Part shown: positions 1 through 14,113 of the stretch, in pieces
Layout: every line of letters begins with the position of its first letter
Position numbering within the stretch: position 1 is the stretch's first letter
Assembly: GCF_000442255.1 (NCBI RefSeq)
Contig: NZ_KE557276.1
Span: 240,877-304,876 of the forward strand
DNA from: Salipiger mucosus DSM 16094
GTDB taxonomy: Bacteria > Pseudomonadota > Alphaproteobacteria > Rhodobacterales > Rhodobacteraceae
DNA: 64,000 bases
Direction of reading: 5' to 3'
The notes under the pieces: generated by a model
Told to the model about the DNA's origin: nothing
What the model saw: only the letters and a program-made list of their open reading frames with translations
The model's database searches: none
Made by a program: the position numbers and the translations under genes

Positions 1-580
1 GCGGCGCGCGCGGGTGACCGGGCTCGAGCCGGGCGGGCCGGCCGTGCTGCTGGAGGGCGGCGAACGGGTGCCGGCGCAGGCGGTGGTGCTGGCCTGCGGC
101 GCGCGTTCGGCGGCGCTGGCCAGCGACGCGGGCGATCGGGTGCCGCTCCAGGCCGAGCGCGGCTATTCCTCGACCTTCCGGCAACCGGGCTTGACGATCG
201 ACATGCCGGTCTTCTCGCCCTCGGAAAAGATCCTCGCGGCGCCCACCGGCGGCGGGCTGCGCTTTGCGGGCACGGCCGAGTTCGCGGGCTTCGGTGCGCG
301 GCCGAACTGGCGCCGGACCGAGGCGCTGGAACGGCTCGGGCGGCGGCTCTTCCCCGACATGGCGCCCGAGAGTAAGCCCGAGCGCTGGATGGGCGAGCGG
401 CCCAGCACGCCCGACAGCCTGCCGGTCATCGGGCGCGCGCGGGCCTCGTCGCGGATCGTGCATGCCTTCGGCCACGGGCATCTCGGCGTCACCACCGCGC
501 CCGCGACCGCGCGGCAGGTCGCGGCGCTGATCGCGGGCGACGCGCCCGCGCTCGAGGCCTGTTCGCCGCAGCGGTTCTGA
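1..580 (+). CDS. FAD-dependent oxidoreductase, D-amino-acid dehydrogenase (DadA/DAO) type, C-terminal part
   Basis: Only the C-terminal ~190 residues are inside the window; the frame is open to the left edge, so the true start lies upstream. The visible part has the features of the DAO fold: the stretch WMGERPSTPDSLPVIG, which in DadA-like enzymes contacts the flavin and substrate carboxylate, and FGHGHLGVTTAPAT near the C terminus, which closes the FAD site. Members oxidise D-amino acids or secondary amines to imino or keto acids. It converges on the ABC ATPase gene with only 3 bases between stops. Whether it belongs to the cluster to the right is inferred from position and from a second DAO protein there. 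Substrate unknown. Confidence 0.85.
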   Translation, partial: RRARVTGLEPGGPAVLLEGGERVPAQAVVLACGARSAALASDAGDRVPLQAERGYSSTFRQPGLTIDMPVFSPSEKILAAPTGGGLRFAGTAEFAGFGARPNWRRTEALERLGRRLFPDMAPESKPERWMGERPSTPDSLPVIGRARASSRIVHAFGHGHLGVTTAPATARQVAALIAGDAPALEACSPQRF

Positions 581-583
581 GTG

Positions 584-1366
584 TCAGTCCCCGGCGCGCC
601 CGAGAAAGGCGCGCAGCTCGGGCGTTTGCGGATCGGCAAAGACCTCGGCGGGCACGCCCTGTTCGGCGATGCGGCCCGCGTGCATGAAGATCACCCGGTC
701 GGCCACGTTGCGCACGAAGTCCATCTCGTGGCTGACCGAGATCATCGTCATGCCTTCTTCGGCAAGCTCGCGCATGACGCGCAGCACCTCGGCCTTGAGC
801 TCGGGGTCGAGCGCCGAGGTCACCTCGTCGAAGAGCAGCGCCTCGGGGCGCATGGCCAGTGCGCGGGCAATGGCGACGCGCTGCTGCTCGCCGCCGGACA
901 TCTGGTGCGGGTAGGCGTGCATCCGGTGCGACAGCCGCACCTTGGCCAGCAGCGCCTCGGCCTCGGCGCGCACCTCGGACTTGTCGCGGTGCTGCACCGT
1001 CATCGGCGCCTCGCAGACGTTCTCCAGCGCCGACATGTGCGGAAAGAGGTTGAAGCTCTGGAAGACCATGCCCAGCCGGGTGCGGAAGGGCAGAAGCTCG
1101 CGCTCGGCCATCGGCAGGCGCTTGTCGCCGCGTTGGTGCCAGCCGACCTCGGCGCCCTGCCAGTAGATGCGGCCGTTGTCGGGCCGGATCAGCAGGTTGA
1201 GGCAGCGCAGCAGGGTCGACTTGCCAGAGCCGGAGGCGCCGATGATGGCCAGCACCTCGCCGCGGCGGACGGTGAAGTCCATGCCGCGCAGGACGTGCTG
1301 TTCGCCGAGGGTCTTCTCGATGCCGCGGATTTCAAGGAGCGGCGCGTCGGGGGCGGTGTCGAACAT
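584..1366 (-). CDS. amino-acid ABC transporter ATP-binding protein (first of two)
   Basis: This 260-residue protein is a polar amino-acid uptake ATPase (GlnQ/HisP type) that would power import at the inner membrane. Walker [10 protein letters not shown] is near residue 40, the signature [15 protein letters not shown] near 160 and Walker [12 protein letters not shown] near 180, followed by the switch His in SVSHEMDF. It is the last gene of the minus-strand transporter operon, 12 bases after the DAO gene. A second ATPase of the same family (2686-3498) sits beside the permeases, so this one is either a second engine for the same permeases or serves a transporter elsewhere. The family is certain; the partner is not. 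Confidence 0.92.
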   Translation of the reverse strand: MFDTAPDAPLLEIRGIEKTLGEQHVLRGMDFTVRRGEVLAIIGASGSGKSTLLRCLNLLIRPDNGRIYWQGAEVGWHQRGDKRLPMAERELLPFRTRLGMVFQSFNLFPHMSALENVCEAPMTVQHRDKSEVRAEAEALLAKVRLSHRMHAYPHQMSGGEQQRVAIARALAMRPEALLFDEVTSALDPELKAEVLRVMRELAEEGMTMISVSHEMDFVRNVADRVIFMHAGRIAEQGVPAEVFADPQTPELRAFLGRAGD

Positions 1367-1378
1367 GGGGATCTTTCG

Positions 1379-2680
1379 TCAGGAGGGACGCTCGGCTTCG
1401 ATCCTATCGCGAAACTCGCTCCAGGGAAGCCAGGCATAGGGGGCTAGGGTGGCCAGCGCGCGCAGCGGCACCGGCTCGGGGGTGGTGACGGGCACGACGA
1501 ACTCCTCGGCCGTGACGCGTCCCGCGAGGAAGCGGCCCAGCTCGTGGCCGAAGGCGCCGGTCAGTGCCACGCCGCGGCCGTTGCAGGCAATGGGAGCCCA
1601 GAGCCCGTCGCCCAGCCGGTGCAGGCGCGGCAGGGCGTCGAGGGTGACGGCGACGGTGCCGGTCCAGGCATAGTCCGCCCGCACCGGGCCGAGCTGCGGC
1701 AGGAAACGGGCGAAGCGCTGCTCGAACCGGCGTCGGGTGCGGGCGAGGCGTCCGGGGCCGGGATGGACCAGCCCGCCGCCGACGATGCGCCCGTCGGGCG
1801 ACCAGCGCGCGGCGAAGAGGTGACGCCGGGTGTCGGCGACGGGGCTGCGCGCCGGCAGGACTCGGGCCTGCGTCTCGGCGCCGAAGCGTTGCGTGGCGAT
1901 CTGGAAGCTGCGCGTCGGGATGACCGCGCGATCGACCGCGGGGCAGAGCCTGCCGACCAGCGCGTTGGTGGTCAGCACCGCCCGAGGCGCGCTGACGCTG
2001 CCGCCGGGGGTGCTGACCCGCCAGCCCAGGCCGTCGCGGGCGATGCCGGTGACGGGTGAGGCCGCGAAGAGCCGGACACCGGCCTGCTGGCAGGCCCGCG
2101 CCAGGCCGCGTGCATAGGCCAGCGGGTTCAGCTGCCCGCCGGTCGGGATCAGCATGGCGCCGTGGTAGCCGTCCATGCCGGTGCGCGCCGCGACGTCCTC
2201 GCGGCCCAGTTGCCGCACGTCGAAGCCCAGGGCCTGCCATTCCGCGACCTGCGCGGCATTGGCCGCCATCGCGGCGCCGGAATGGGCCGGCTGCAGCCAG
2301 CCGGTCTGTTCCGCGCCCTCGATCCCCTGCTCTCGGGCAAGCTCGAAGAGCCTGGTGCCAGAGCCGCCGATCATGCGCGAAAAGGCCTCGCCCCGGCGGG
2401 GTCCGAAGGCGGCGCGCACGTTGGCCGGAGACAGCGCCTTCTTCAGCGTCGGCACGACGAAACCGGTATTGCGCCCGGAGGCGCCCCAGCCGGGTTCCCG
2501 CGCCTCGACCAGCGCGACGGTGAGCCCCTCGGCGGCCAGCGTCAGCGCCGTGGTCATGCCGAGATAGCCCGCGCCCACCAGAACGATGTCCGCCGTGACC
2601 TCGCCCCTCAGCGAGGGCAGGTCGGGCCCCGGCGGCGTGATCGCCGACCAGAGCGAGCGGTCGAAGGTTTCCGCGACCAT
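1379..2680 (-). CDS. FAD-dependent oxidoreductase, DAO family (PuuB/sarcosine-oxidase-like)
   Basis: The 433-residue flavoprotein has an N-terminal Rossmann dinucleotide site (VGAGYLGMTTALTLA near residue 35), then the ASGRNTGFVVP stretch typical of gamma-glutamylputrescine oxidase/glycine-oxidase-like DAO enzymes, and a C-terminal flavin-closing segment (CNGRGVALTGAFGHELG). Such enzymes oxidise an amine, often a secondary or N-methyl amine, to the imine with release of an aldehyde or ammonia. It lies inside the ABC transporter operon, 5 bases after one ATPase gene and 12 bases before the other, so it probably acts on the imported solute or its immediate product. The substrate cannot be read from sequence. 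Confidence 0.88.
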   Translation of the reverse strand: MVAETFDRSLWSAITPPGPDLPSLRGEVTADIVLVGAGYLGMTTALTLAAEGLTVALVEAREPGWGASGRNTGFVVPTLKKALSPANVRAAFGPRRGEAFSRMIGGSGTRLFELAREQGIEGAEQTGWLQPAHSGAAMAANAAQVAEWQALGFDVRQLGREDVAARTGMDGYHGAMLIPTGGQLNPLAYARGLARACQQAGVRLFAASPVTGIARDGLGWRVSTPGGSVSAPRAVLTTNALVGRLCPAVDRAVIPTRSFQIATQRFGAETQARVLPARSPVADTRRHLFAARWSPDGRIVGGGLVHPGPGRLARTRRRFEQRFARFLPQLGPVRADYAWTGTVAVTLDALPRLHRLGDGLWAPIACNGRGVALTGAFGHELGRFLAGRVTAEEFVVPVTTPEPVPLRALATLAPYAWLPWSEFRDRIEAERPS

Positions 2681-2685
2681 GACGG

Positions 2686-3498
2686 TCAGCGTGCCCGCAT
2701 GGCGCGGCCGAGGAAGGAGCGCGTGCGCGCCTGCTGCGGGTTGCGCAGCACCTCGGCGGGCGTGCCGTCCTCGTGGATGGCGCCGTCGGCCATGAAGATC
2801 ACCCGGTCGCCCACGTCCTCGGCGAAGGCCATCTCGTGGGTGACGACCAGCATGGTCATGCCCTCCTCGGCCAGCTGGCGCATCACCTGCAGCACGTCGT
2901 CGACCAGTTCGGGGTCGAGCGCCGAGGTCACCTCGTCGAAGAGCATCAGCTTGGGCGTCATCGCCAGCGCGCGGGCGATGGCGACGCGCTGCTGCTGCCC
3001 GCCGGAGAGCTTGCCGGGGTGGTGGTCCATCCGGTCGGCGAGCCCCACGCGGTCGAGCAGCCCCGCGGCCATGTCGCGGATCTCGGCCCGGGTGCCGCGG
3101 CGGTGGGCCAGCGGCGCCTCCATGACGTTTTCGAGCGCGGTCATGTTGGGGAAGAGGTTGAAGTGCTGGAAGACCATGCCGATCTCGACGCGCCTGCGCC
3201 GCAGGTCGCGCCGCGAGACGCGCGCGGGGTCGGGGCCGCCGATGCGCTGGCCGTCGATCAGCACGGCGCTGCCCGCGTCGGGCGTCTCGAGGTGGTTCAC
3301 GCAGCGCAGCAGCGTCGACTTGCCCGAGCCCGAGGCGCCGATGATCGAGACGACCTGACCGGCGGGCACCTTCAGGTCGACGCCGTGCAGCACGGTCTTG
3401 TTGCCGAAGGATTTGCGCAGGTTCACGAGTTCCAGCATCGGGCGGTCGTGGGCGCGCGCAGGCGTGGCGGGGTTGGCGGTCATGCAGGTGTCTTTCAT
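2686..3498 (-). CDS. amino-acid ABC transporter ATP-binding protein (second)
   Basis: The 270-residue ATPase of the polar amino-acid uptake family has Walker [10 protein letters not shown], signature [15 protein letters not shown] and Walker [13 protein letters not shown], then VTHEMAF with the switch His. It starts 13 bases after the permease gene stop, so it is the direct cytoplasmic partner of the two permeases. An internal ATG 15 bases downstream is an alternative start. The N-terminal ~20 residues ([13 protein letters not shown]) precede the ATPase fold and look unstructured. It resembles the ATPase at 584-1366 in family, but the two differ throughout, so this is not a recent tandem duplication. 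Confidence 0.93.
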
Positions 3499-3511
3499 CT
3501 CGGGGGCTCCG

Positions 3512-4165
3512 TCACGGCAGGGTCACGCGGCGCTGCACGCGGGACTGCAGGATCGCCATCAGCGAGGTCAGCAGCAGGTAGACCACGGCCGCGAAGGCCA
3601 GGAATTCGACCGAGCGGTAGGTCTCGGTCACCTTGGCCATGCTCTGGGCGGTCAGCTCGCTCACCGCGACAAGCGAGGCGATCGAGGTGGCCTTCACGGT
3701 GACGATGGCGCGGGTGAAGTAGGGGCCGCACATGACCGGCAGCGCCTGCGGCACCAGCACGCGCCACACGAAACGCCAGGTCGGCAGGCCCAGTGCATCG
3801 GCGGCCTCGAACTGGCCGCGCGGCACCGCCATGAGGCCCGAGCGCAGGTCCTCGGCAAGGTAGGCGGTGGTGACGACGGTTAGGCCGACCAGCGCCGCCG
3901 TGAAGGGCGAGACGAAGACGCCGAGCGAGGGCAGCCCGTAGAAGGTGAAGTAGAGGATCACCAGCAGCGGCAGCGCGCGGATCACGTTGACGTAGGTCGC
4001 GGCGGCGCGGCGCAGGCCACGGACCCGCGAGACGCGCGCCAGCGCGACCAGCAGTGCCAGCGGCGTGCACAGGCCCATGATGGCGAGGAAGAGCCAGATC
4101 GTCGTGCGGACCCCGTAGAGCAGGCTCGGCAGTGCGTTCTCGATGAGCGTCGGGTCGAAATTCAT
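3512..4165 (-). CDS. amino-acid ABC transporter permease (HisM/GlnP type)
   Basis: This integral membrane permease of 217 residues belongs to the polar amino-acid family. It has several hydrophobic helices ([42 protein letters not shown]) and the EAA-type cytoplasmic loop [24 protein letters not shown], which docks on the ATPase. The start is set at the ATG that overlaps the upstream permease stop as ATGA (4162-4165); a longer reading would add an unrelated leader. It forms the membrane channel with the adjacent permease. Specificity would be set by the binding protein at 4854-5723. Confidence 0.93.
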
Positions 4166-4833
4166 GGCGAGACGTGTCCCTGGTGGTCCCAGCGCCGCTC
4201 GGACCACATCTGCACGGCGATCAGCATGGCGTCGATGACGCCGTAGATGATCGCGACGCCGAGAAGGATCTCGAAGGGGCGGTTGGTGGCGACGATGGCC
4301 TGGTTGGCGCGGGTGACGAGCTCGGTCACGCCGATGGCCCCGGCCAGCGCCGTGCCCTTCACCATGTCCATCGAGTAGGAGACGTAGGGCGGGATGATCG
4401 ACGGCATGGCCTGCGGCAGCACGATCCGCCGCAGCGACCGGGTCATGGGCAGGCCCGCGGCTGCGATGGCCTCGTGCTGGCCCTTGGGCACGGCGCGCAG
4501 GCCCGCGCTGACCACCTCGCCGAGGATGAAGGTGTTGTAGACGACAAAGCCCGCGATGGCGGCGGTCAGCGATTCAAGCCGCAGGTCCAGCACGATGGGC
4601 AGGACGTAGTAGGCGATGAAAAGGATGATGAGCGGCGGCACGCCGCGCACCATCCAGCTCAGCACCGTGGCCGGGGCGCGCAGCCAGCGGCTGCGCGCTT
4701 CGAGGGCAAGCCCGACCGCCAGCGCCAGCGGCGTGCTGATGGCGAGAACCCCCGCCACCAGCGCCAGCGTCAGCCACAGCCCCTGCAGGATGTAGGGGCC
4801 GCGGACGGCCCAGATCGACAGGTCGAAGTCCAT
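4162..4833 (-). CDS. amino-acid ABC transporter permease (HisQ/GlnP type)
   Basis: This 223-residue inner-membrane permease has hydrophobic segments at the N terminus (YILQGLWLTLALVAGVLAIS) and mid-protein (PPLIILFIAYYVLPIVLDL), plus the EAA loop EAIAAAGLPMTRSLRRIVLPQAMP that contacts the ATPase. It lies 20 bases after the binding-protein gene and overlaps the next permease by 4 bases (ATGA), which implies translational coupling and heteromeric assembly. It is a typical member of the His/Glu/Gln/Arg permease family at normal length. Confidence 0.93.
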   Translation of the reverse strand: MDFDLSIWAVRGPYILQGLWLTLALVAGVLAISTPLALAVGLALEARSRWLRAPATVLSWMVRGVPPLIILFIAYYVLPIVLDLRLESLTAAIAGFVVYNTFILGEVVSAGLRAVPKGQHEAIAAAGLPMTRSLRRIVLPQAMPSIIPPYVSYSMDMVKGTALAGAIGVTELVTRANQAIVATNRPFEILLGVAIIYGVIDAMLIAVQMWSERRWDHQGHVSP

Positions 4834-4853
4834 CGGTCAGGCGCGCCCTTCGA

Positions 4854-5723
4854 TCAGTAGCCCACGACCGAGAGCATCTCGGAGGTGTCGGGCAGGTCCC
4901 ACTTCTCGTTGAGCGCCTTGATCGTGCCGTCGGTGCGGTACTTGGCCATCAGGAAGTTCACGGCGGTCAGCAGGTCGGGCTCGCGCGCGTTGACGCAGAA
5001 GCCGCCCACGCCCACGGCGGTGGGTTGCGGCAGGATCTTGAACTGGTCGCCGTCCGGCCCGTCGAGCAGCGCGCTCGCGGCATGGATGCCGGTGCCGTAG
5101 GCCTCGATCTGGCCGTTGAGCAGTGCAAGGCGCGCCTCGGTCACGCCGGGCAGGGCCAGCGCGTCGGTCTCGTCCTGGCCGGCGGTCGAGAGCAGGTGCT
5201 GAAGCTCCATCTCGCCCTTCACGCCGCCGAGCTTGGCGTCGGCCAGGTCGTCGAGGCTTTCGATGCCGCTGTCTTTCTTCACCACGGCCACGTCGATCGC
5301 GACCTTGACCGGTCGGGTCAGGAAGAAGTCGGGCGAGGTGAGACGGTCGTTGTTCCAGCTCGCGCCCTCGCAGCCCATGTCGAAGCGGTTGGCGGCAAGG
5401 CCGGGCATGACGCCGGACCAGTCGACGCGCACGAACTCGGGCTCGAGGCCGAGGTCCTCGGCCAGCTTGGTCCAGAGGTCGATGCGCGCGCCCTGCAGCG
5501 TGCCGTCGTCGCCGATGAAGGTTTCCTTCTGGGTCTTGCCGGTGGTCGCGATGATCAGCTTGCCCTCTTCGATGAGGTTCTCCAGCGGCCAGGGATCCGG
5601 GTAGTCGAGGCTGACCTCGAGGCTGTCGAGGTCGATGCCCTGCGCCTGCGCCGCACCCAGCGGGGCAAGAAGGGCGAGCGCGGCCGCGAAGGCGGTGGCG
5701 GTCTTGCGGATGGAAAGGGTCAT
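4854..5723 (-). CDS. amino-acid ABC transporter substrate-binding protein
   Basis: This 289-residue periplasmic binding protein of SBP_bac_3 type starts with a signal peptide (basic SIRKTATAF, hydrophobic AAALALLAPLGA, cleavage after AQA near residue 28). The two-lobe fold is recognisable from FDMGCEGASWNNDR near mid-protein and GVGGFCVNAREPDLLTAVNFL near the end, where Arg and Asp residues normally grip the ligand amino and carboxyl groups. It is the first gene of the transporter operon, with the regulator palindrome about 120 bases upstream (5842-5851). The ligand is probably an amino acid or amino-acid derivative; the sequence does not identify it. Confidence 0.92.
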   Translation of the reverse strand: MTLSIRKTATAFAAALALLAPLGAAQAQGIDLDSLEVSLDYPDPWPLENLIEEGKLIIATTGKTQKETFIGDDGTLQGARIDLWTKLAEDLGLEPEFVRVDWSGVMPGLAANRFDMGCEGASWNNDRLTSPDFFLTRPVKVAIDVAVVKKDSGIESLDDLADAKLGGVKGEMELQHLLSTAGQDETDALALPGVTEARLALLNGQIEAYGTGIHAASALLDGPDGDQFKILPQPTAVGVGGFCVNAREPDLLTAVNFLMAKYRTDGTIKALNEKWDLPDTSEMLSVVGY

Positions 5724-5841
5724 TGCGGTCTCCGGTTGGACTCTTGGTTGCGGGTCTCGTTCTTGCGCGTCCGGGTCGTTGCTGCGCCGGACGCCTTCAG
5801 CGAAGCGGCTTCCCGGGCTGATATCAATTTAAAATTATTAG

Positions 5842-5851
5842 TGATATATCA
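5842..5851. promoter_or_regulatory. GntR-type operator TGATATATCA upstream of the transporter operon
   Basis: This is a perfect 10-bp palindrome, extended by one base on each side to GTGATATATCAC, in a short A+T-rich patch of an otherwise GC-rich region. It lies about 120 bases before the binding-protein start. An 8-bp variant, TGATATCA, sits at 5819-5826. Matching sites occur at 9256, 13285 and 14104. FCD-type GntR regulators bind short palindromes like this. That the GntR protein of this cluster binds it is inferred from co-occurrence. Confidence 0.7.
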
Positions 5852-5894
5852 CGAAAACACGGGTGATGTGCTGCGTGATGGATTTTTGCACAGA

Positions 5895-6737
5895 TCAGTG
5901 CCTGTCGGCCGATGACCCTGCCGCTTGCGGCGCGAGCCCGCCCCGGGTGCCGACACGCAGATTCGCGTTGGCGAAGGCGTCGAAGAACCCTGCCAGCCCT
6001 TCGGTGACCACCGCGAGGATCGCGTCGCCGGTCTCGGCGGTCGCGGTGGCAGGGTCGCCGTAGTAGCCGCAGTCACCGGGCTGGAAGATCGGCGGCCAGC
6101 CCGCTCCGGCCGCGGTGATCGGGTCGGCGTCGCCGGCCTCGGCCATCCAGGGCTGGGTGCAGCGCGACGGCAGATCCCGGATCGCCCGGGCGATGGCAGC
6201 CGCCTTGTCGGGTGTGGCCAGCGCCATGCTCAGCGACGTCTCCATCTCGCAGGCATGGCCGACGCGGGGCAGGGCGCCGCGCAGGAGCGGCACCCAGTCG
6301 GCCTCTGAAGGCGCGAAGTAGTCGATCATTCCGACCGCATGGCCGTCGGTCACCATCTGCCCGACGAGAGAGCGCAGCGGGGCCGTGTTGCCACCGTGCC
6401 CGTTGACGAAGAGCATGCGCCGAAACCCTGCCCCCAGCACCGAGCGCGCGAGATCGCCCAGCAGCGCGAGGTAGGTCTCGAGCCGCAGCGAGAGGGTGCC
6501 CGCCCAGGCCGCGTGATGCGGCGAGAAGCCGGCGGCGACCGGGGGCGCCACGACCACCGCGCCGGCGGCGCGCTCGGCGGCACGCCGGGCGATGGCGGCG
6601 GCGAGCCGCGTGTCGGTGTCCACCGGGAGGTGGTCGCCGTGCTGTTCGGTCGCGCCGGTGGGCACCACGACCAGCGCGCCCTCGGCGCCCAGGCGGGCGA
6701 GTTCGGCGCGGGTCAGATCCTGCCAGGAGTGAAGCAT
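5895..6737 (-). CDS. creatininase-family amidohydrolase
   Basis: This 280-residue protein of the creatininase superfamily comprises metal-dependent cytoplasmic hydrolases of cyclic amides and formamides (creatininase, mycofactocin protease MftE, FAPy deformylase relatives). The metal site shows in GATEQHGDHLPVDTD (Glu-His then His/Asp ligands, near residue 30) and in FVNGHGGNTAP near 110; a later Glu is in ACEMETSLSMAL. The length fits the family. It lies between the binding-protein operon and the cupin gene on the same strand. With the cyclic amidase at 11209-12561 it suggests that a ring amide is opened in this pathway. Creatinine itself is only one candidate. Confidence 0.9.
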   Translation of the reverse strand: MLHSWQDLTRAELARLGAEGALVVVPTGATEQHGDHLPVDTDTRLAAAIARRAAERAAGAVVVAPPVAAGFSPHHAAWAGTLSLRLETYLALLGDLARSVLGAGFRRMLFVNGHGGNTAPLRSLVGQMVTDGHAVGMIDYFAPSEADWVPLLRGALPRVGHACEMETSLSMALATPDKAAAIARAIRDLPSRCTQPWMAEAGDADPITAAGAGWPPIFQPGDCGYYGDPATATAETGDAILAVVTEGLAGFFDAFANANLRVGTRGGLAPQAAGSSADRH

Positions 6738-6801
6738 GGGCGGGGCCTTTCGGGAAAAGGGGCGCCGGACCGCAAGGGATGGAACGGCCCGGCGCGCACC
6801 G

Positions 6802-7194
6802 TCACATGTCGCCGTGTTCCTTCGACGGATTCGAACAGACGGCGACCACGAGGCCGGCTTCGCCGATGATGTGACGGTAACGGTAGGTCCTGGGCAGGTA
6901 CATCGCGTCGCCCTGGCGGAAGATGCGTTCCTCGCCTGTGGCCTCGACGATCTGGCGCGACCAGCCGTGCAGGCAGTAGAGCACGACCTGGTTCTCGCCC
7001 TTGCCTTCGACCATGACGTCGAAATGCGGCATGTAGGTGGTGATGTGGAACGAGAACGAGCAGCCGTTCTGGTTCTTGGTGATGAGGCGGTGCGAGAATT
7101 CCTTGCCCTCGTGCACCCAGGTCAGCGGCACGTCTTCCTGCCGCGCCCACTGGATGGTGTCTTCGAGGGCCTGTGTTCCGGTGGCCTGCGTCAT
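6802..7194 (-). CDS. cupin protein resembling ectoine synthase
   Basis: This 130-residue single-domain cupin has segments that resemble ectoine synthase (EctC): CSFSFHITTYM near residue 45, VVLYCLHGWSRQ, RQGDAMYLPR and a late LVVAVCSNP. EctC closes a ring by removing water from N-acetyl-diaminobutyrate. No ectA or ectB lies nearby, and the central EctC metal stretch with HYKxHxEAVYC is only partly kept (here MPHFDVMVEGKGENQVVLYC), so the reaction is probably different. I chose the ATG at 7194 because AAAGGA sits 8 bases upstream; an ATG 18 bases earlier has no such site. It is preceded by the flavoprotein gene on the same strand. Confidence 0.75.
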   Translation of the reverse strand: MTQATGTQALEDTIQWARQEDVPLTWVHEGKEFSHRLITKNQNGCSFSFHITTYMPHFDVMVEGKGENQVVLYCLHGWSRQIVEATGEERIFRQGDAMYLPRTYRYRHIIGEAGLVVAVCSNPSKEHGDM

Positions 7195-7222
7195 GGGGCT
7201 GGTCCTTTGCATTGCGGTTATG

Positions 7223-9208
7223 TCAAAGCGCGAGCGCGGCCTCGTAGCCGTCGAGGAAGGCGGCCTCGATGTCGCGCGGGGCGTAGCAGTCGCCGATGGC
7301 CCGGACCGTGAGGCCCGCCGCCTCGAGCGGTGCGCGCAGGGTGTCGCGGGGAAGGCCGGGGTCGGCCAGCACGATGCTGTCGTAGCTGCGCAGGGGCATG
7401 GGCTGGCGGCTGAAGACGTTCTCCAGCGTGACGCGTCCGCCGTCGAAGCGAGCGGGCCGCGTCGCGGGGAGGAAGGTCACGCCCAGCTCGGCCGCCTGTT
7501 TCCAGAAATAGGTCAGGTTCTGGATTACCAGGTTGTGGCCCGCGTGCAGGCCCTGCGTGCTGAGGTCGACGTTGCGCCCGAGCCGCGCGAGGTGGATCGC
7601 CGCGGCCATGCCCGGCGTGCGATTCATGTTGTCGATGACCAGAACGCGCGCGCCGCAGCGCGCGGGATCCTGCACCGCCTCGTCGACGGTCAGGATCGGC
7701 GCCGCCTCGGCCCCGGGCGTGCGCAGGGTGCCGGGCCGCGCGCCGCAGGCCAGCAGCACGACGTCAGGCGCGGCCTCGGCGATGCGCGCGGCACTCGCGC
7801 GGGCGCCAAGCCTCAGGGTGACGCCGAGCCGTTCGATCTCCGCGGCCTTGTGGTCGATCATCCGGCCCCACTCGGCGCGGCCCTCGGGCAGGCGGGCCAC
7901 GTTCATGCGGCCTCCGAGGCACTCGTGCTCGTCGTAGAGCGTGACATCATGGCCGCGCAGCGCGGCGACGCGGGCGGCCTCCATGCCCGACGGCCCGGCG
8001 CCGATGACACTCACGCGCCGGGCTCGCTCGATGGGCGGCAGCGCGTGCCAGCGTTCTTCACGCCCCGTCGTGGGATTGCCGACGCAGGAGATGTGGCGCC
8101 CGCGGTAGAGCCGGCCGAAGCAGGCCTGCTCGCAGGCGACGCAGGGCGTCACGCGGTCCGTCCCGCCGCGCCGCGCCTTGGCGGGCAGGTGCGGGTCGGC
8201 GATGAGCGGGCGCACCATACCCGCCATGTCCGCGTCGCCCCGTGCCAGCAGGGCCTCGGCCTCGGCTGCGGTGTGGATGCGGGTCGCGTGCAGCACGGCG
8301 GTGCCGGGGCAGGCGGACCGGATGCGTCCTGCGAGCGAGGCGAAGGGCGCCGGCGGCAGCCCCATCGGCGGCTCGTGCAGCATGTTCGAGACAAGGTCGC
8401 CGTCGCTGCCCGCACTCACGTCGAGATAGTCGAGCGCGCCGGCCTCCACCAGCATCGGGCAGATCACGGCCATGTCCTCGGCGGTGAGACCGCCCGGGAT
8501 CAGCTCGTCGCCCGAGACGCGGATGCCAAGCGGAACGTCCGGCCCGATCTCGGCGCGCACGGCCGCGAGCACCTCGCGGGGGAAACGGGTCCGGTTCTCG
8601 ACCGAGCCGCCGTAGGCGTCTGTGCGGTGGTTGGTGAGCGGCGAGAGGAACTGGTTCAGCAGCAGCCCGTGGCCGCAATGCACCTCGATCCCGTCGAGCC
8701 CGGCCTCGAGGTTGCGCCGTGCGGCCGCCGCGAAGGCCGCGACCAGCTCGGCGATCTCGCCCGCGGTCATGGCGTGGGCGACTTCGCCGTACTTCTGCTC
8801 GTAGTCCGCCGAGGCCGACCACAGCGCCACAGGCCGGGCCGAGGTGGCCATGCCCATGTGCCCGAGGTAACCGAAGATGCGCCCGCCTTCGGCCTGCACG
8901 GCGCGGGCCACGCGGGCGAGGCCGGGCACGATGCGGTCGTCGTAATTGGTGAGCAGCCCGGTGATGCCCGGCGAGGAGGGGTGCACCTGCTGCGTGCCCA
9001 GCATGATGAGCCCGACCTCGCCGCGCGCGCGCTCGGCGTAATAGGCGACCATCCGGTCGTTGGGCGTGCCGTCGGTGGGCATGCCGGTGCCGTGGCCCGT
9101 CATCACGATGCGGTTGCGGATCCGGCAGCCGTTGATCGTGATCGGCTCGAACAGGTGGACGAAGGCGCCGCCACCCTCTGCCACATCGCTGTGCAGGTCG
9201 TCCTTCAT
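7223..9208 (-). CDS. Old Yellow Enzyme-type FMN/4Fe-4S/FAD oxidoreductase (2,4-dienoyl-CoA reductase / TMA dehydrogenase family)
   Basis: This 661-residue three-part flavoprotein has an N-terminal TIM barrel (LFEPITINGCRIRNRIVM; VHCGHGLLLNQFLSP; TDAYGGSVENR), a 4Fe-4S cluster motif with cysteines in CVACEQACFGR followed by C in HISCVGNP (C-x2-C-x3-C-x11-C), and a C-terminal NAD(P)/FAD domain (VSVIGAGPSGMEAAR). Relatives include trimethylamine dehydrogenase, histamine dehydrogenase, the N-methylproline demethylase StcD and dienoyl-CoA reductase. Oxidative N-demethylation or ring C=C reduction are both plausible. A regulator palindrome lies 48 bases upstream, and the gene is divergent from the DapA-like gene. 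Its start has GGAGA 7 bases upstream. Confidence 0.9.
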   Translation of the reverse strand: MKDDLHSDVAEGGGAFVHLFEPITINGCRIRNRIVMTGHGTGMPTDGTPNDRMVAYYAERARGEVGLIMLGTQQVHPSSPGITGLLTNYDDRIVPGLARVARAVQAEGGRIFGYLGHMGMATSARPVALWSASADYEQKYGEVAHAMTAGEIAELVAAFAAAARRNLEAGLDGIEVHCGHGLLLNQFLSPLTNHRTDAYGGSVENRTRFPREVLAAVRAEIGPDVPLGIRVSGDELIPGGLTAEDMAVICPMLVEAGALDYLDVSAGSDGDLVSNMLHEPPMGLPPAPFASLAGRIRSACPGTAVLHATRIHTAAEAEALLARGDADMAGMVRPLIADPHLPAKARRGGTDRVTPCVACEQACFGRLYRGRHISCVGNPTTGREERWHALPPIERARRVSVIGAGPSGMEAARVAALRGHDVTLYDEHECLGGRMNVARLPEGRAEWGRMIDHKAAEIERLGVTLRLGARASAARIAEAAPDVVLLACGARPGTLRTPGAEAAPILTVDEAVQDPARCGARVLVIDNMNRTPGMAAAIHLARLGRNVDLSTQGLHAGHNLVIQNLTYFWKQAAELGVTFLPATRPARFDGGRVTLENVFSRQPMPLRSYDSIVLADPGLPRDTLRAPLEAAGLTVRAIGDCYAPRDIEAAFLDGYEAALAL

Positions 9209-9255
9209 GCAGGCTCTCCGTCTCCGCCCGGCTTGGGGCGAAATGGTATGTGTTG

Positions 9256-9265
9256 TGATATATCA
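9256..9265. promoter_or_regulatory. GntR-type operator TGATATATCA between divergent flavoprotein and DapA-like genes
   Basis: Exact copy of the 10-bp palindrome, 48 bases before the flavoprotein start and 142 bases before the DapA-like start. Read on the minus strand it is TTCTTGATATATCACAA, close to the copies at 5842 and 13285 (TTCGTGATATATC). The position overlaps the expected promoter of the minus-strand gene, which suits repression relieved by an inducer. Confidence 0.7.
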
Positions 9266-9406
9266 AGAATATCCTTTAGGGTATGTCCAGACCCGAAGCC
9301 GCAGGTTTTGCCGCGTCACGCGCAAACGACCGGTTTTTGGGCAAGAGACCCCGGACGACAGGCCAGACCGCCCGCGCGGCCCGGCCAAGCAATGGAGACA
9401 GGACAG

Positions 9407-10336
9407 ATGATCGACACCCGGACGCGCGGCGTCTTCGTGATTTCCGCCACGCCCTTTGCCGAGGACGGTTCGCTCGACCTCGAGAGCGCGGCGCGGCTGA
9501 CCGAGTTCTACCTCGAGAAGGGCGCCTCGGGCCTGACGGTCCTGGGCATGATGGGCGAGGCGGCCAAGCTGACTCCGGAAGAAAGCCTTGCCTTCCTCGA
9601 CACGGTCCTGCGCGTGGTCGCGGGGCGGGTGCCGGTGGTGGTGGGCGTCTCGGCACCCGGCATCGTGGCGCTGGGGGCGTTGGCGAAACAGGCGATGGAG
9701 CGCGGTGCGGCGGGCGTCATGGTGGCGCCCACGCCGAACCTGCGCACCGACCAGCAGATCGAGGCCTACTACGCGCTGGTCTGCGAGACGCTGGGCCCCG
9801 ACGTGCCGGTCGTGCTGCAGGACTTTCCGCTGGCGCTGGGGGTGCAGTTCTCGGTCGATTGCCTCGTGCGGATCTTCGCCGCGCATCCGCAGATCGTCAT
9901 GCTCAAGCACGAGGACTGGCCGGGTCTCGCCAAGCTGGGCCGCCTGCGCGCGCTCGAGGCCGAGGGCCGCGCGCCCCATGTGTCGATTCTCGTCGGCAAC
10001 GGCGGGCTCTTCCTGCCGCAGGAGATGGCGCGCGGCGCCGACGGGGCGATGACGGGGTACGCCTATCCCGAGATGCTGGTCCAGGTGGTCGAGGGCATGA
10101 CCGCGGGCAATCGCGACGCGGTCGAGGACGTGTTCGACGCGCACCTGCCGCTCATCCGGCTGGAGACGCAGCCCGGCCTTGGTCTCGCCTTCCGCAAGCA
10201 GGTGCTGTTCCGTCGGGGCGCCATCGCCTCGCCCTTCGTGCGGCGCCCGGGGCCGAAGCTGGATGCCGAGGACATGGCCGAGCTCGACCGCACGCTTGGG
10301 CGGCTCGACCGGCGGCTTGCCGAACTGGCGGAGTGA
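9407..10336 (+). CDS. dihydrodipicolinate synthase (DapA) family lyase
   Basis: This 309-residue class I aldolase/lyase of the DapA/NanA family has the expected N terminus (GVFVISATPFAEDGSLD), a GxxGE-like motif (LGMMGEAAKL) and a Schiff-base lysine in IVMLKHED near residue 165. The tyrosine of the usual YNxP segment is absent; here it reads VVLQDFPLALG, so the proton relay differs from true DapA. The family splits or condenses keto acids, or dehydrates and deaminates hydroxyproline-derived pyrrolines. It is the only plus-strand gene inside the cluster and shares a control region with the flavoprotein. I chose the ATG at 9407 over one 15 bases upstream because of the purine-rich leader GGAGACAGGACAG. 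Confidence 0.87.
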   Translation: MIDTRTRGVFVISATPFAEDGSLDLESAARLTEFYLEKGASGLTVLGMMGEAAKLTPEESLAFLDTVLRVVAGRVPVVVGVSAPGIVALGALAKQAMERGAAGVMVAPTPNLRTDQQIEAYYALVCETLGPDVPVVLQDFPLALGVQFSVDCLVRIFAAHPQIVMLKHEDWPGLAKLGRLRALEAEGRAPHVSILVGNGGLFLPQEMARGADGAMTGYAYPEMLVQVVEGMTAGNRDAVEDVFDAHLPLIRLETQPGLGLAFRKQVLFRRGAIASPFVRRPGPKLDAEDMAELDRTLGRLDRRLAELAE

Positions 10337-10360
10337 GCCGCGAGGACCCGACCCTGTGCA

Positions 10361-10390
10361 GGCGCCGCCCCCGCGAGCCGGAGGCGGCGC
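10361..10390. terminator. possible bidirectional hairpin between convergent DapA-like and SDR genes
   Basis: The inverted repeat GCGCCGCC (10362-10369) pairs with GGCGGCGC (10383-10390) across a 13-base loop, inside the 60-base gap between two convergent stops. There is no T-tract on either strand, so it is only a candidate. Confidence 0.35.
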
Positions 10391-10396
10391 ACTTGG

Positions 10397-11185
10397 TCAG
10401 ATGGAGCGGATCATCCCGCCGTCGCAGCGGACCTTGGCGCCCGTGACGTAGCTGGCCTTCTCGCTCACGAGAAAGGCCGCGACCGAGGCGAATTCCTCGA
10501 CCTTGCCGTAACGGCCCGTCGGGATGCTCGCGCGCGAGGCGGCGGCGACCTCCTCGGCCGACTTGCCCTGCCGCTTGGCCGCCGCGGCGTCGAGATCGTC
10601 GACACGGGCGGTGTGGATGCGGCCGGGCAGCAGCACGTTGCAGGTCACCCCGTCGCCCGCGACTTCCGAGGCCGTCGTCTTGGACCAGCCCAGCAACGCG
10701 GCGCGCAGCGTGTTCGACATGCCGAGGTTGGGAATCGGCTGTTCGACGCCCGACGAGGTCAGCGTCAGCACGCGGCCCCAGCCCTGCGCGCGCATGGCCG
10801 GCAGCAGCGCGTTGGTGATCCCGATGACGCGCTCGACCATGGTCGAGAAGCTGGAGACCCAGGCCTCGGACGAGGTCTCGGTGATCGGGCCAGGCGGCGG
10901 GCCGCCGGTGTTGTTCACCAGGATGTCGACGCCGCCCAGCTTGTCCGTTGCCGCAGCCTGCAGCTGCGCCACCGCGTCCGGCGCCGCGAGGTCCGCCACC
11001 GCGAAATCGGCGCGGCCCGGTCCGCCCTCGGTGAGCCGCGCGGCGGCCTCCTCGAGCCGGGTCGCGTCGCGACCCGTCAGAAGCACATGCGCGCCCTCGG
11101 CGACCAGCGCCTCGGCGATGCCCAGGCCCAGCCCCCGCGAGGAGGCGAGCACGAGCGCGCGTTTTCCGTTCAGTCCAAGATCCAT
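10397..11185 (-). CDS. short-chain dehydrogenase/reductase with non-canonical active site
   Basis: This 262-residue Rossmann-fold SDR has the cofactor site ALVLASSRGLGLGIAEAL near residue 10, the NNTG structural motif (VDILVNNTGGPPPGP) and a C-terminal GAKVRCDGGMIRSI. The catalytic Ser is present in LTSSGVEQP, but the Tyr-x3-Lys pair is replaced by Ser-x3-Arg in GMSNTLRAALLGWSKT. A subfamily of 3-oxoacyl-ACP-reductase-like SDRs with this SNTLR signature is known to me, but without an assigned reaction. The start was set at the ATG beginning MDLGLNGKRA. It is the last of three same-strand genes (racemase, cyclic amidase, SDR). Its role in the pathway is unclear. Confidence 0.87.
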   Translation of the reverse strand: MDLGLNGKRALVLASSRGLGLGIAEALVAEGAHVLLTGRDATRLEEAAARLTEGGPGRADFAVADLAAPDAVAQLQAAATDKLGGVDILVNNTGGPPPGPITETSSEAWVSSFSTMVERVIGITNALLPAMRAQGWGRVLTLTSSGVEQPIPNLGMSNTLRAALLGWSKTTASEVAGDGVTCNVLLPGRIHTARVDDLDAAAAKRQGKSAEEVAAASRASIPTGRYGKVEEFASVAAFLVSEKASYVTGAKVRCDGGMIRSI

Positions 11186-11208
11186 GTCCGTCCTCTTTCC
11201 AGGTCCGT

Positions 11209-12561
11209 TCAGTGGCGCGCGATGAAGGCGCCGCTGCCCGCCCGCGACAGGATCTCGGTCCCGTCCCAGGCGATTTCGCCCCGGCGCACGGTCGTGCTCA
11301 CCGAGACGTCGAAGGTTTCGCCGTCGTAGGGGCTCCAGTTCAGCCCGTCGCGCGTGGTGGAGGCATCGAAGGGCGCGGGCCCCCGCTTGAGCACCGCGAG
11401 GTCCGCGTCGGCGCCCGGCACGATCGCGCCCTTGCGCGGCGCGATCCCGAAGAAGTCCGCCGGCGCCCGGCAGAGCGTCTCTGCCAGCCGCATCACGGCC
11501 TCGCGCGCGCCGTAGCGCGCGGCGGCGTCGGTGTAGAACGACGGCCCCAGCGTCTCGAGACCGGGGATGCCCGCGCCCGCGTCGAAGATCGAGGGCACCA
11601 GCTTGTTGTCGATGGGCCAACTCGAATGGTCCGAGGAGATGAAGGTGACTCGGCCCGCTTCGCAGGCTTCCCAGAGCCCCTCGATCGCGCCGGAGCGGAT
11701 CGGCGGAGAGACCTTCATCCGCGCGCCCAGCCGATCGACGTCGCGGGCGGCGTCGAAGTGCAGGTAGTGCACGCAAAGCTCGCCGGTGGCCCGCACGCCG
11801 CGCGCGGCATGCTCGGCGACGATCTCGAAACCGCGGGAGGAGGAGAGGTGCACGATGTGCACATGCGCTCCGGTGGCCGCGCCCAGCTCCATGAACTGCG
11901 CGGTGGCGGTCAGCTCGGCGACCTCGGGGCGCGAGGGTTCGTGGAACTCCGGCGTGATCTGCCCGGCTTCGCGGTGCCGCGCGATCATCGCCTGCACGAT
12001 CTCCTGGTCCTCGTTGTGAAGCCCCACCGGCAGTCCGGTCGGGACCGAGGCCGAGAGGATCGACATGATCTCGTCGGCGGGAATGCGCGGGAAGCGCACC
12101 GGGTGACTCTCGATCAGCGACAGCTTGAAGGCGCAGACGCCCGCCTTGGCGAGCGGCGCCATCTCGTCGGTGCCCTGGCCCGGCGCCACGGTGCCGTAGA
12201 GCGCCACGTCGCAATGCGAATGGGCCTCGACCGCGGCGACCTTGGCCTCGAGCCGCGCCATGGTGTTGAGCGGATCGGGGTTGTCGTAGGGCATGTCGAC
12301 CATGGTCGTGATGCCCCCCGCCAGCGCCGACTGCGAGGTCTCGGCAAAGCCCGGCAGGCCTCGGTAGCTGGTCGCGTGGGTCTGGCCATCGACGATGCCG
12401 GGGATCACCCAGTCGGTGCCCGCGTCGATCACGCGCTTTGCGTCGGGGCGTGGGCCTTGGCCCACGGCGGAGATATGCTCGCCGGTCACGGCCACCCAGC
12501 CGTCGTCGAGGATGCCCGACGGGGTCACGACGGCCCCGCACATCAGGAGATCATGGGTCAT
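11209..12561 (-). CDS. cyclic amidohydrolase of the dihydroorotase/hydantoinase/allantoinase family
   Basis: This 450-residue amidohydrolase-superfamily enzyme has an N-terminal beta-sandwich segment and a TIM barrel. Metal-site motifs in order are VDGQTHA (near 60), the lysine to be carbamylated in CAFKLSLIES (near 150), LHNEDQE (near 185), HIVHLSSSRG (near 240) and FISSDHSSW (near 305). The first motif is normally D-x-H-x-H; here the first His is Gln, so one metal ligand is changed. It is not pyrC, which is at 37203-38237. It lies 16 bases after the racemase-like gene. That pairing is typical of hydantoin degradation: hydrolysis of a 5- or 6-membered cyclic ureide or imide. Confidence 0.87.
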   Translation of the reverse strand: MTHDLLMCGAVVTPSGILDDGWVAVTGEHISAVGQGPRPDAKRVIDAGTDWVIPGIVDGQTHATSYRGLPGFAETSQSALAGGITTMVDMPYDNPDPLNTMARLEAKVAAVEAHSHCDVALYGTVAPGQGTDEMAPLAKAGVCAFKLSLIESHPVRFPRIPADEIMSILSASVPTGLPVGLHNEDQEIVQAMIARHREAGQITPEFHEPSRPEVAELTATAQFMELGAATGAHVHIVHLSSSRGFEIVAEHAARGVRATGELCVHYLHFDAARDVDRLGARMKVSPPIRSGAIEGLWEACEAGRVTFISSDHSSWPIDNKLVPSIFDAGAGIPGLETLGPSFYTDAAARYGAREAVMRLAETLCRAPADFFGIAPRKGAIVPGADADLAVLKRGPAPFDASTTRDGLNWSPYDGETFDVSVSTTVRRGEIAWDGTEILSRAGSGAFIARH

Positions 12562-12577
12562 GCGGCCTCTCGGTCTG

Positions 12578-13240
12578 TCAGGAGAAACGGGGGTAGCGCA
12601 GGGCGACCAGCGCGGCGCCGCGCAGCACGGCGGCCTGCACCGGGTCGATCACCGGCAGGCCGAGGCGCGACTCGATCTCGGGCCGGTAGATGCCCATCGA
12701 GGCGCAGCCCAGCACCAGGCACTCGGCGCCGTCGCGGTCGCGCAGCGCGGTGCCGACCTCGCAGATGCGCGCCACCGCCCGCTCGGCGTCGGCCATCGCC
12801 GCAACGCCCATGTCGAGCGAGCGGTCCCCGGCAAGAAAGCTCTCGTAGCCCAGGGCACGCACTGCGCGGCGGTGCCGCCCGATGGAGGCCTGCACGATGG
12901 AGACCACGCCGAAGCGACCGCCCATGAGCAGGGCCTCGCCGTAGGCGGCCTCGGCGATGCCCACCACGGGGCCCGCCAGCCGCTCGCGCGCGAGGTGAAG
13001 GCCGGGATCCGAGAAGCATCCGATCACATGGGCGTCGGCCGGCTCCGCCTCGAGCCGTGCGACCAGCGGATGCACGACCGCCTCGACGTCGGCCTGGCTC
13101 TCGATGCCCGCGGGGGCGCCGTCGAGCGTGCCGAAGACCAGCTCCGCGGCCAGCCCCGGAGCGACCAGCGCCGCCGACTGCTCCATGCTGTCGGTGACAT
13201 CGGTCGAGCTGTTCGGGTTCAGGACGTAGATACGGGTCAT
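12578..13240 (-). CDS. Asp/Glu/hydantoin racemase family protein
   Basis: This 220-residue protein has the two pseudo-symmetric cysteine motifs of cofactor-independent racemases: IGCFSDPGLH near residue 75 and LVLGCASMGIYRP near 178. These supply the two acid/base thiols. The N terminus IYVLNPNSSTDVTDSM is diagnostic of the hydantoin racemase branch (HyuE-like), and the length is as expected. It probably interconverts the enantiomers of a 5-substituted cyclic ureide or related compound before hydrolysis by the neighbouring amidase. It is the first gene of its operon, with an operator-like palindrome about 45 bases upstream. Confidence 0.88.
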   Translation of the reverse strand: MTRIYVLNPNSSTDVTDSMEQSAALVAPGLAAELVFGTLDGAPAGIESQADVEAVVHPLVARLEAEPADAHVIGCFSDPGLHLARERLAGPVVGIAEAAYGEALLMGGRFGVVSIVQASIGRHRRAVRALGYESFLAGDRSLDMGVAAMADAERAVARICEVGTALRDRDGAECLVLGCASMGIYRPEIESRLGLPVIDPVQAAVLRGAALVALRYPRFS

Positions 13241-13284
13241 GGGGGCACGCTGATACGAGTTGTTATGTCGATTAATATAGTTTG

Positions 13285-13294
13285 AGATATATCA
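13285..13294. promoter_or_regulatory. GntR-type operator (one mismatch) upstream of the racemase operon
   Basis: AGATATATCA on the plus strand differs by one base from TGATATATCA. On the minus strand the site reads TTCGTGATATATCTCAA, identical over 13 bases (TTCGTGATATATC) to the site at 5842. It lies about 45 bases before the racemase start, in the 117-base gap between the racemase gene and the regulator gene. Confidence 0.65.
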
Positions 13295-13357
13295 CGAAGC
13301 CATGCAAGCCCGTGCCCGGGTTTTCCGGCCGTTGCGCGGCCTTTTCCCGGGGGCTGC

Positions 13358-14071
13358 CTAGAGCGAGACCGATCCGAAGTTCGGGCTGTTCGCCAGCGTC
13401 GTCATCAGACCCTGCCGTGTCGCGTCGTTGTGGCGGATCATGATCTCGCGCGCGCGGGCAGGGTCGCGGCTGGCCAGGACCTCGACGATCTCCTTGTGCT
13501 CCTCGTTGGTCTCGGAGTTCACGTCGCGTAGCGTCGCGCCGAGATAGAAGAAGCGTTCGAGCTCGTCGATCTGGCGTTCCAGCATGGTGTAGAGCCGCTC
13601 GTTGCGCGAGGCGCGGGCGATGGCCAGGTGAAAGCTGCGGTTCTTGCCGACGAACTCGGCCAGCGCGGTCTGCGCGGAGGCATCGTAGGTGCCTTCGGCC
13701 AGCTCGGCGAGATCGGCAAGCTCGGCCTCGGTGATCCGGCTGGTGGCCAGCTCGGCCGCGCCCGACTCGAGGATCGTGCGGACGTCGAAAAGCTCGTTCA
13801 TGTCGCCGAAGGTGATTGCCGCCACCTGGTAGCCCCGGCGCGGGAAGGTGCGGATCAGCCCGTCCAGGCGCAGCGCCGCGAGTGCCTCGCGCACCGGTGT
13901 CTTGGAAACCTCGAACCGCGCGGCAAGGTCGGCCTCGGAGAGGTCGGCGCCGGGTTTCAGCTCGCAGGTCAGAATCTCGCGCCGCAGCTGGGCATAGACG
14001 GTTTCGGTCAGCGAGGGTTTCTTCTGCTTCTTCGCGCCGGTATCCGGAGCATTGCGTGTCGCGGCGTCCAA
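13358..14071 (-). CDS. GntR family transcriptional regulator, FCD (FadR-type) effector domain
   Basis: This 237-residue regulator has an N-terminal winged helix (TVYAQLRREILTCELKPGADL, then SEADLAARFEVSKTPVREAL at about 35-55) and an all-helical FCD ligand domain with the acidic/His metal-site pattern (DVRTILESGAAELA; NRSFHLAIARAS; NEEHKEIVEVLASRD). FCD regulators of this type respond to small organic acids and usually repress nearby catabolic genes. The start is a TTG at 14071 with GGGAG 6 bases upstream. A copy of TGATATATCA lies 33 bases before it, which suggests autoregulation. It is the probable controller of the 584-13,240 cluster. The effector is unknown. Confidence 0.92.
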   Translation of the reverse strand: MDAATRNAPDTGAKKQKKPSLTETVYAQLRREILTCELKPGADLSEADLAARFEVSKTPVREALAALRLDGLIRTFPRRGYQVAAITFGDMNELFDVRTILESGAAELATSRITEAELADLAELAEGTYDASAQTALAEFVGKNRSFHLAIARASRNERLYTMLERQIDELERFFYLGATLRDVNSETNEEHKEIVEVLASRDPARAREIMIRHNDATRQGLMTTLANSPNFGSVSL

Positions 14072-14103: not shown

Positions 14104-14113
14104 TGATATATCA
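14104..14113. promoter_or_regulatory. GntR-type operator TGATATATCA upstream of the gntR gene
   Basis: Exact copy of the palindrome, 33 bases before the regulator TTG start, in an A+T-rich patch (TAGGTATATATTC) likely to contain the regulator promoter. The remaining ~235 bases up to trigger factor hold no recognisable gene and presumably carry the tig promoter. Confidence 0.7.

Follow-up and report, generated by a model that had tools for sequence, protein, structure and literature searches.

A 64-kb stretch of the 5.69-Mb genome of Salipiger mucosus DSM 16094 (contig positions 240877-304876; hereafter the window) carries, at window bases 2-14071, a cluster of about 14 co-regulated genes for import and breakdown; some other soil and marine bacteria also keep most of these together. 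The cluster is a real, conserved catabolic unit that brings known enzyme families together in a combination we have not found described: no pathway with this set of genes was found in the open-access literature, which leaves most subscription journals and preprints outside its reach. We read the cluster as a GntR-controlled catabolic regulon in which a carboxylated cyclic ureide or amidine is imported, oxidised, racemised and opened by hydrolysis before lyase cleavage, and give this reading a probability of about 0.5. The reactions, their order and the class of substrate are what we infer from the genes, their conserved linkage, a shared palindrome and subfamily-wide motifs, all described below.

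An initial annotation of this region had placed the unit at 584-13240. It named a polar amino-acid-type importer, a creatininase-family hydrolase (here Creat), a cyclic amidase (a hydantoinase-superfamily amidohydrolase, here AMI), a racemase (RAC), an OYE/Fe-S flavoprotein (OYE), a DapA-like lyase, an SDR and DAO-family oxidases. Family models confirm every one of these names. The unit is larger than proposed, as it also takes in a cupin gene (6802-7212), a GntR gene (13358-14071) and, upstream, a further DAO oxidase gene (DAO0) with a permease pair. The view of a single catabolic cluster, built around a core that opens a ring of the cyclic-amide type, stands, with substrate class and reaction order still at the level of prediction.

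Shared palindrome and conserved neighbourhood

The palindrome TGATATATCA occurs exactly before the unit that begins with the binding-protein gene (5842..5851), between the divergent OYE and DapA-like genes (9256..9265) and before gntR (14104..14113). A palindrome-like AGATATATCA, with one mismatch, precedes RAC (13285..13294), and a further one-mismatch copy lies between the upstream permeases and DAO0 (contig position 239835, ~1.04 kb before window base 1). The exact palindrome is present at three places in the whole genome, all of them in the cluster, and the reversed control pattern at none. When one mismatch is tolerated, there are 22 places in the genome (6 for the control), five of which fall inside 15.2 kb around the cluster. 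In 100 shuffled versions of the window, the mean number of matches with up to one mismatch was 0.11, and no version had four or more; the palindrome probability of 4e-6 is that for one given site, uncorrected. The GntR/FCD regulator (13358..14071, minus strand; PF00392 63 bits, PF07729 98.7 bits) is the likely controller of the gene set and, judging from its position, probably binds the palindrome. As the DapA-like gene lies on the plus strand amid two minus-strand units, there must be at least three transcription units rather than a single operon.

The palindrome was also sought in other genomes. In Salipiger pallidus, matches with up to 2 mismatches in 12 lie near the same four starts; three of the four are inside over-long called open reading frames and were judged to precede the real starts by reading-frame length only. 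In Rhizobium halophytocola, matches are found before the binding-protein gene, before OYE and also before RAC; this RAC belongs to an adjoining RAC-AMI-DapA-SDR unit that shares only 44-58% identity with that of the window. Among 77 RAC upstream regions, 46 match the palindrome at 8 or more of 10 bases and 17 at 9 or more, compared with 17% and 5%, respectively, of AT-matched stretches, a control drawn from these loci themselves that may contain genuine sites. As a separate observation, a one-mismatch copy at locus L164 (contig C5, position 123305) precedes, by eye, genes for a family-3 binding protein, an enolase-superfamily enzyme and a GMC oxidoreductase.

For the neighbourhood analysis, genome contigs were scanned once, with four aligned AMI proteins as the query; at least 559 AMI relatives were recovered, and the 80 best of them define the loci. 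Presence was counted as any tblastn match at E 1e-10 or better, so defined that the counts for ABC, GntR and SDR proteins include paralogues. Relatives of GntR were found in 71 of these best 80 loci, of the DapA-like protein and of RAC in 69 each and of SDR in 47. Those of DAO1 (the DAO oxidase encoded within the window) were found in 18, of Creat in 15, of the cupin in 14, of the binding protein in 12 and of OYE in eight. The S. pallidus locus contains relatives of all the window genes except DAO0. RAC, AMI and the DapA-like protein form a core in many Alphaproteobacteria, the class in which the nearest relatives of the cluster also seem to lie. Such a search had been set beforehand as the test of co-inheritance; conserved membership and the shared palindrome both argue against genes that are not inherited together.

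Gene calling and clustering, with family scans on chosen representatives, defined four settings for these loci. In setting A (Rhizobium, Agrobacterium and Devosia), RAC-AMI-DapA is found with a family-5 peptide-type importer, a rhodanese, a glyoxalase-like protein, GntR, a PatB C-S lyase and often SDR. Setting B (Microvirga and others) has a glyoxalase-like protein, a family-5 importer and a TRZ/ATZ-type deaminase with RAC, AMI and the DapA-like protein. Setting C, that of the window, is characterized by DAO1, the cupin and/or the creatininase-like protein and a polar amino-acid importer. In setting D, AMI occurs mostly without RAC and together with a Rieske oxygenase, a reductase and a CN-hydrolase; the creatininase-like protein is present in two of these loci (L077 and L088). 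The rhodanese and PatB C-S lyase beside RAC-AMI-DapA at L062 and other Rhizobium/Agrobacterium loci suggest a sulfur-containing relative of the substrate. At L040, L077, L088 and L091, AMI relatives lie beside a LigXa-type Rieske oxygenase and a reductase; some of these loci have a CN-hydrolase as well. In Maritalea, a TRAP system annotated as DctP adjoins the core.

A quick tree of 94 AMI rows, with bit thresholds for presence and the window row labelled by hand, places 86 rows in one clade (SH-aLRT 99), apart from four ErtD rows. The L105 locus was left out because its amidohydrolase is in pieces: this protein of Neorhizobium galegae pNgVX (L105:6036-7407) is annotated as three pieces, owing to frameshifts or sequencing error. 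The cupin is encoded nearby in 17 rows including the window, all 17 with a DAO1 relative, and its presence corresponds to nine changes on the tree. In a recount without the window and with L105, a DAO1 relative was present in 17/17 cupin loci and Creat in 12/17; these DAO1 matches span 29-78% identity, and some are perhaps not orthologues. Six independent pairs on the tree are supported; DAO1 changes with the cupin in an average of 3.8 of them and against it in none. The joint presence spans rhizobia, rhodobacters and Acetobacteraceae, and several amidohydrolase lineages carry the oxidase-cupin module, to which the creatininase-like protein is often added and OYE sometimes. That a cupin-DAO pair joined the core repeatedly is thus moderately supported.

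Core enzymes and the EctC-like cupin

AMI (11209..12561, minus strand) has as its best named family ErtD, the hydantoin-5-propionate amidohydrolase of ergothioneine utilisation (NF058538), and scores below its curated cut-off (468.4 vs 600 bits). It is also below the cut-offs for allantoinase (TIGR03178, 262.7 of 357.85 bits) and for the D-hydantoinase/dihydropyrimidinase model (TIGR02033, 195.9 of 393.25 bits). Its closest solved relative is the L-hydantoinase 1gkr. Motif positions were read in relatives recovered by tblastn. Lys146, His182, His238 and Asp311, which we take to be the metal site of the hydantoinase branch of the amidohydrolase superfamily, are present in 89/89 relatives and place AMI in that branch. 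At position 60, Gln replaces the first metal His in 87/89 relatives, and the other two have His. AMI resembles ErtD in this respect, as three of the four proteins that score above the ErtD cut-off carry Gln and one His, and also in its RFPR loop, with Arg156 and Arg159; the corresponding stretch of 1gkr has no Arg. It differs from ErtD in score and in its separate clade, and neither RAC nor the DapA-like protein was found around the four above-cut-off ErtD proteins.

RAC (12578..13240, minus strand; PF01177 185.5 bits) has as its closest solved relatives 3qvj, 3qvk and the allantoin racemase 5lfd. Cys179 is present in 72/72 relatives and Cys75 in at least 66/72. Both residues, presumably catalytic, align with Cys of 3qvj, as for a racemase of the hydantoin/allantoin type.

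The DapA-like protein (9407..10336, plus strand, start read from the sequence; PF00701 86 bits), a predicted Schiff-base lyase or dehydratase, reaches only 83.5 bits on the DapA model TIGR00674 (cut-off 206.15). It carries QDFP and KHED, and QD[FY]P with KHED is found in 70/70 relatives. Where YNxP is expected, the closest solved protein 3dz1 (deposited as dihydrodipicolinate synthase, 291 bits) has QDYP and the L-2-keto-3-deoxyarabonate dehydratase 3fkk has QDAP. The latter enzyme is like the window protein in this replacement and in its Schiff-base Lys and is much more distant than 3dz1, at only 107 bits. SDR (10397..11185, minus strand, start read from the sequence; PF13561 160.8 bits) belongs to a subgroup with SN-x-x-R, seen in 41/43 matches; the other two have Y-x3-K-like letters. 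Its closest solved relatives are 2z1n and 5vps, and the alignments with 2z1n, 5vps and 5idx all show SN-x-x-R.

The initial annotation had read three of these motifs literally and correctly: VDGQTH in AMI, the missing Tyr of YNxP in the DapA-like protein and Ser-x3-Arg in SDR. Their subfamily-wide occurrence (87/89 AMI, 70/70 DapA-like and 41/43 SDR proteins) does not bear out a view of them as a sign of unusual catalysis. Motif decay is rejected on the same grounds; such motifs are also present in solved relatives, and the three are hallmarks of conserved subfamilies rather than of damaged enzymes. The palindrome and the cupin are more informative than these motifs.

The cupin (6802..7212, minus strand) is a small protein of 136 residues and a distant relative of ectoine synthase EctC. 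PF06339 (ectoine synthase) is matched by 13/15 members of its family, with a best E of 2.2e-5, and the window protein itself is below the gathering score (18.4 of 27 bits). Its only PDB sequence match is the ectoine synthase 5bxx (E 0.028 with the single sequence, 0.014 with the profile), and it is 32% identical over 90 residues to the genome's own EctC. A Foldseek search with its AlphaFold model (mean pLDDT 60.8, low confidence) returned EctC chains in six of the top 10 rows, with another cupin, 4e2g, as the best row; we take the model as weak support only.

PMC6344544 gives Glu57, Tyr84 and His92 as EctC iron ligands and Tyr52 and Trp21 as substrate residues. By comparison with the ligands listed there, Tyr105 and His114 of the cupin are invariant, and the Glu at position 75 is present in 13/15 aligned members. 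The His corresponds to His92 in the HMMER alignment and is one residue off in the BLAST alignment. EctC Tyr52 and Trp21 align to Gly70 and Glu38 of the cupin. The cupin is like EctC in fold, in a weak sequence relation and, in 13/15 members and depending on the alignment for His, in the metal Glu/Tyr/His positions; it differs in its sub-threshold score, its substrate residues and its catabolic setting. As a side observation, tandem or fused arrays of ectoine-synthase domains occur in some class members, at L145 (G307:C81 35-3343, eight consecutive matches), L144 (G338:C106) and L148-L152.

The cupin is rare. It is absent from the other genomes of the phylum sample (0/397) and present in 4/72,556 plasmid records, two of which are near-identical Martelella plasmids; AMI is encoded within 10 kb in all four. 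Sixteen chosen stretches with other EctC proteins encoded outside ectABC operons (five of them shorter than 14 kb) contained no AMI, RAC, DapA-like, Creat or OYE gene. The link to the core therefore looks specific to this cupin clade. The idea that orphan EctC proteins act in the same pathway was rejected on this 0/16 count; weak DAO matches (24-28% identity) were seen in two of the stretches. A review calls the role of EctC-like proteins outside ectoine synthesis unresolved (PMC5924519), and this cupin is more distant from EctC than the orphans covered in it.

Importer, oxidases and flanking genes

The importer comprises an ATPase of the polar amino-acid type (584..1366, minus strand; PF00005 120.9 bits), whose best NCBIfam relatives TcyN, GlnQ, HisP and EhuA each remain below cut-off, and a second ATPase (2686..3498, minus strand; PF00005 120.3 bits). 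It has two permeases, both on the minus strand (3512..4165, PF00528 76.3 bits; and 4162..4833, HEQRo_perm_3TM 66 bits, cut-off 42.2). The longest reading frame of the first permease reaches 4207, and its likely start, read from the sequence, is at 4165. The family-3 periplasmic binding protein (4854..5723, minus strand; PF00497 82.5 bits) has as its closest solved chains by sequence the reconstructed ancestral binding proteins AncQR and AncCDT-1. Its pocket residues do not point to a ligand: the Arg of an x-R-L segment is present in 13/13 relatives, and the position aligned with the Asp that we take to bind ammonium varies.

DAO1 (1379..2680, minus strand; PF01266 187.8 bits) resembles the L-pipecolate oxidase AmaA, with 228 of 600 bits on that model. 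The C-terminal part of DAO0 lies at 2..580 on the plus strand (PF01266 positions 169-353). The remainder precedes the window across an assembly gap, a run of N (L012:15584-15877) that breaks the gene just upstream of the window and is flanked on both sides by identical letters. Further upstream is the divergent permease pair, with the one-mismatch palindrome between it and DAO0.

Creat (5895..6737, minus strand; PF02633 187.6 bits, cut-off 31.3) keeps the EQH...D, N[GS]HGGN and GHACE motifs in 17/17 relatives. It shares the Creatininase domain with the enzymes of creatinine degradation and is far below the creatininase model TIGR04448 (77.4 of 235 bits), as well as below cut-off for MftE (126.5 of 172 bits). 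It belongs to the creatininase family without being a creatininase proper, and creatinine breakdown through N-methylhydantoin, named earlier as the nearest known route, is not supported by these scores. OYE (7223..9208, minus strand; PF00724 211 bits, with pyridine-nucleotide domains) has its Fe-S cysteines as Cys356-x2-Cys359-x3-Cys363-x11-Cys375, scores 573.5 of 793.15 bits on mycofact_OYE_2 and has an H-x-x-H at the expected flavin-site position. The NCBIfam models that score best for Creat and OYE carry mycofactocin names; a link to that system was rejected, as the genome, 97.5% complete, has no MftC match.

A true ectA-ectB-ectC-ask operon for ectoine synthesis is located at L012:8072-11834, ~4-8 kb before window base 1; its EctC was assigned by model and ectA, ectB and ask by reading the sequence. 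The other 94 AMI-locus stretches yielded no relative of ectA or ectC, and two of them had ectB-like matches of 28-32% identity. The closeness of this operon to the EctC-like cupin may therefore be due to chance.

Proposed route and its alternatives

In the proposed regulon, the compound taken up by the importer would be a chiral, hydantoin-like ring that bears a carboxylate and is of the cyclic ureide or amidine type. DAO1, and DAO0 or OYE, would act by oxidation or reduction at a C-N or C=C bond, and an amidine or amide bond of the compound might be processed by Creat and the EctC-like metal cupin. RAC would racemise the carbon adjoining the ring carbonyl, and AMI, like its relative ErtD, would use metal-assisted hydrolysis to open the ring, yielding an N-carbamoyl (ureido) acid. 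The DapA-like Schiff-base enzyme and SDR would then split or reduce the leftover 2-oxo-acid skeleton. This class of substrate is suggested by ErtD as the nearest family of AMI, the two-Cys RAC, the RFPR loop and the transporter types. Within this scheme, the cupin and the DAO oxidase could feed the RAC-AMI-DapA ring-opening core as a front end that joined it several separate times, a proposal that we make tentatively.

Hydantoin and allantoin utilisation involves a racemase, a hydantoinase or allantoinase, and a carbamoylase. The RAC-AMI pair comes from the same superfamilies; the cluster adds the DapA-like protein, DAO and the cupin, and no carbamoylase was recognised in it by family scans. 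The initial annotation had noted the lack of an N-carbamoyl hydrolase, which is correct for the cluster itself as far as the family scans can tell; elsewhere in the genome, four places score above the cut-off of a hydantoinase/carbamoylase family. Removal of the carbamoyl group might thus fall to the creatininase-like protein or to carbamoylases elsewhere in the genome, and these hydrolases could complete a ureido route.

Several findings weigh against this scheme, starting with the failure of the family scans to recognise a carbamoylase among the cluster genes. AMI, Creat, OYE and the cupin each fail to reach the cut-off of the closest named family, and no substrate was found in the literature searched for any member of the AMI clade, the cupin clade or the DapA subgroup. 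In the window and in S. pallidus, the cupin has Gln at the position of the EctC iron-ligand Glu, which is kept in the 13 others of 15. The exact palindrome is present in only 4/21 window-type loci and 7/73 others, 31/77 RAC upstream regions have no 8-of-10 match, and there is little or no excess of such matches upstream of DAO1 (2/21), the cupin (3/17) or Creat (1/17). The tree shows no significant cupin-DAO association (median p 0.125, with six supported pairs) and only a weak one between the cupin and the creatininase-like protein (2.8 independent pairs the same way, 1.6 opposite), and most cupin loci have no OYE. The core is also paired with the rhodanese and PatB or with the TRZ/ATZ-type deaminase, and AMI with the Rieske oxygenase and CN-hydrolase, and from these differing partners the core may serve more than one compound.

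Other rings have to be considered. With a cyclic imide or dihydropyrimidine, OYE would reduce a C=C bond, AMI would open the ring in the manner of a dihydropyrimidinase or imidase, and RAC would racemise the 5-carbon. The AMI superfamily does hold dihydropyrimidinase, allantoinase and dihydroorotase, and the H-x-x-H of OYE, presumably with a flavin-site role, is where it should be. We nevertheless regard this alternative as rather unlikely, given that ErtD is by far the best AMI model (468 bits vs 263 for allantoinase and 196 for D-hydantoinase/dihydropyrimidinase), that OYE occurs in only eight of the best 80 AMI loci and that the Tyr we would expect after its second His is Leu here and in the five best-aligned relatives. 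Degradation of an ectoine-like cyclic amidine, with the cupin running in the hydrolytic direction, would fit its kinship with EctC, the sub-threshold EhuA, EhuC and EhuD matches of the transporter and the nearby ectABC-ask operon. It is made improbable by the Gly70 and Glu38 that replace Tyr52 and Trp21, the substrate residues named in PMC6344544, by the 16 EctC stretches devoid of AMI, RAC, DapA-like, Creat and OYE genes and by the near absence of ect relatives from the other 94 AMI-locus stretches.

ErtD as the nearest named family of AMI, and the locus type in which the core is paired with rhodanese and PatB C-S lyase, might instead point to a variant ergothioneine or thio-imidazole route ending in hydantoin-5-propionate. 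There is little chance of this, as AMI is at 468 of 600 bits and outside the ErtD rows of the tree, stretches around the four above-cut-off ErtD proteins yielded no RAC or DapA-like gene, and no sulfur-handling enzyme was recognised among the window cluster genes. That unrelated genes merely adjoin one another is hardly credible: the opposite strand of the DapA-like gene and the gain or loss of OYE and SDR between relatives would agree with it, and the palindrome census, the joint presence of cupin and DAO1 and the rarity and linkage of the cupin all contradict it.

For the GntR-controlled regulon that we favour, the exact palindrome confined to the cluster and the joint presence of its genes across lineages fix the membership of an uncharacterised pathway. 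Knowledge of its substrate could assign about eight enzyme subfamilies at once. The cluster also provides a concrete setting for the role of EctC-like proteins outside ectoine synthesis. If the core is indeed fed by the cupin and DAO oxidase, this would be the first EctC-like protein with a catabolic role that we are aware of.

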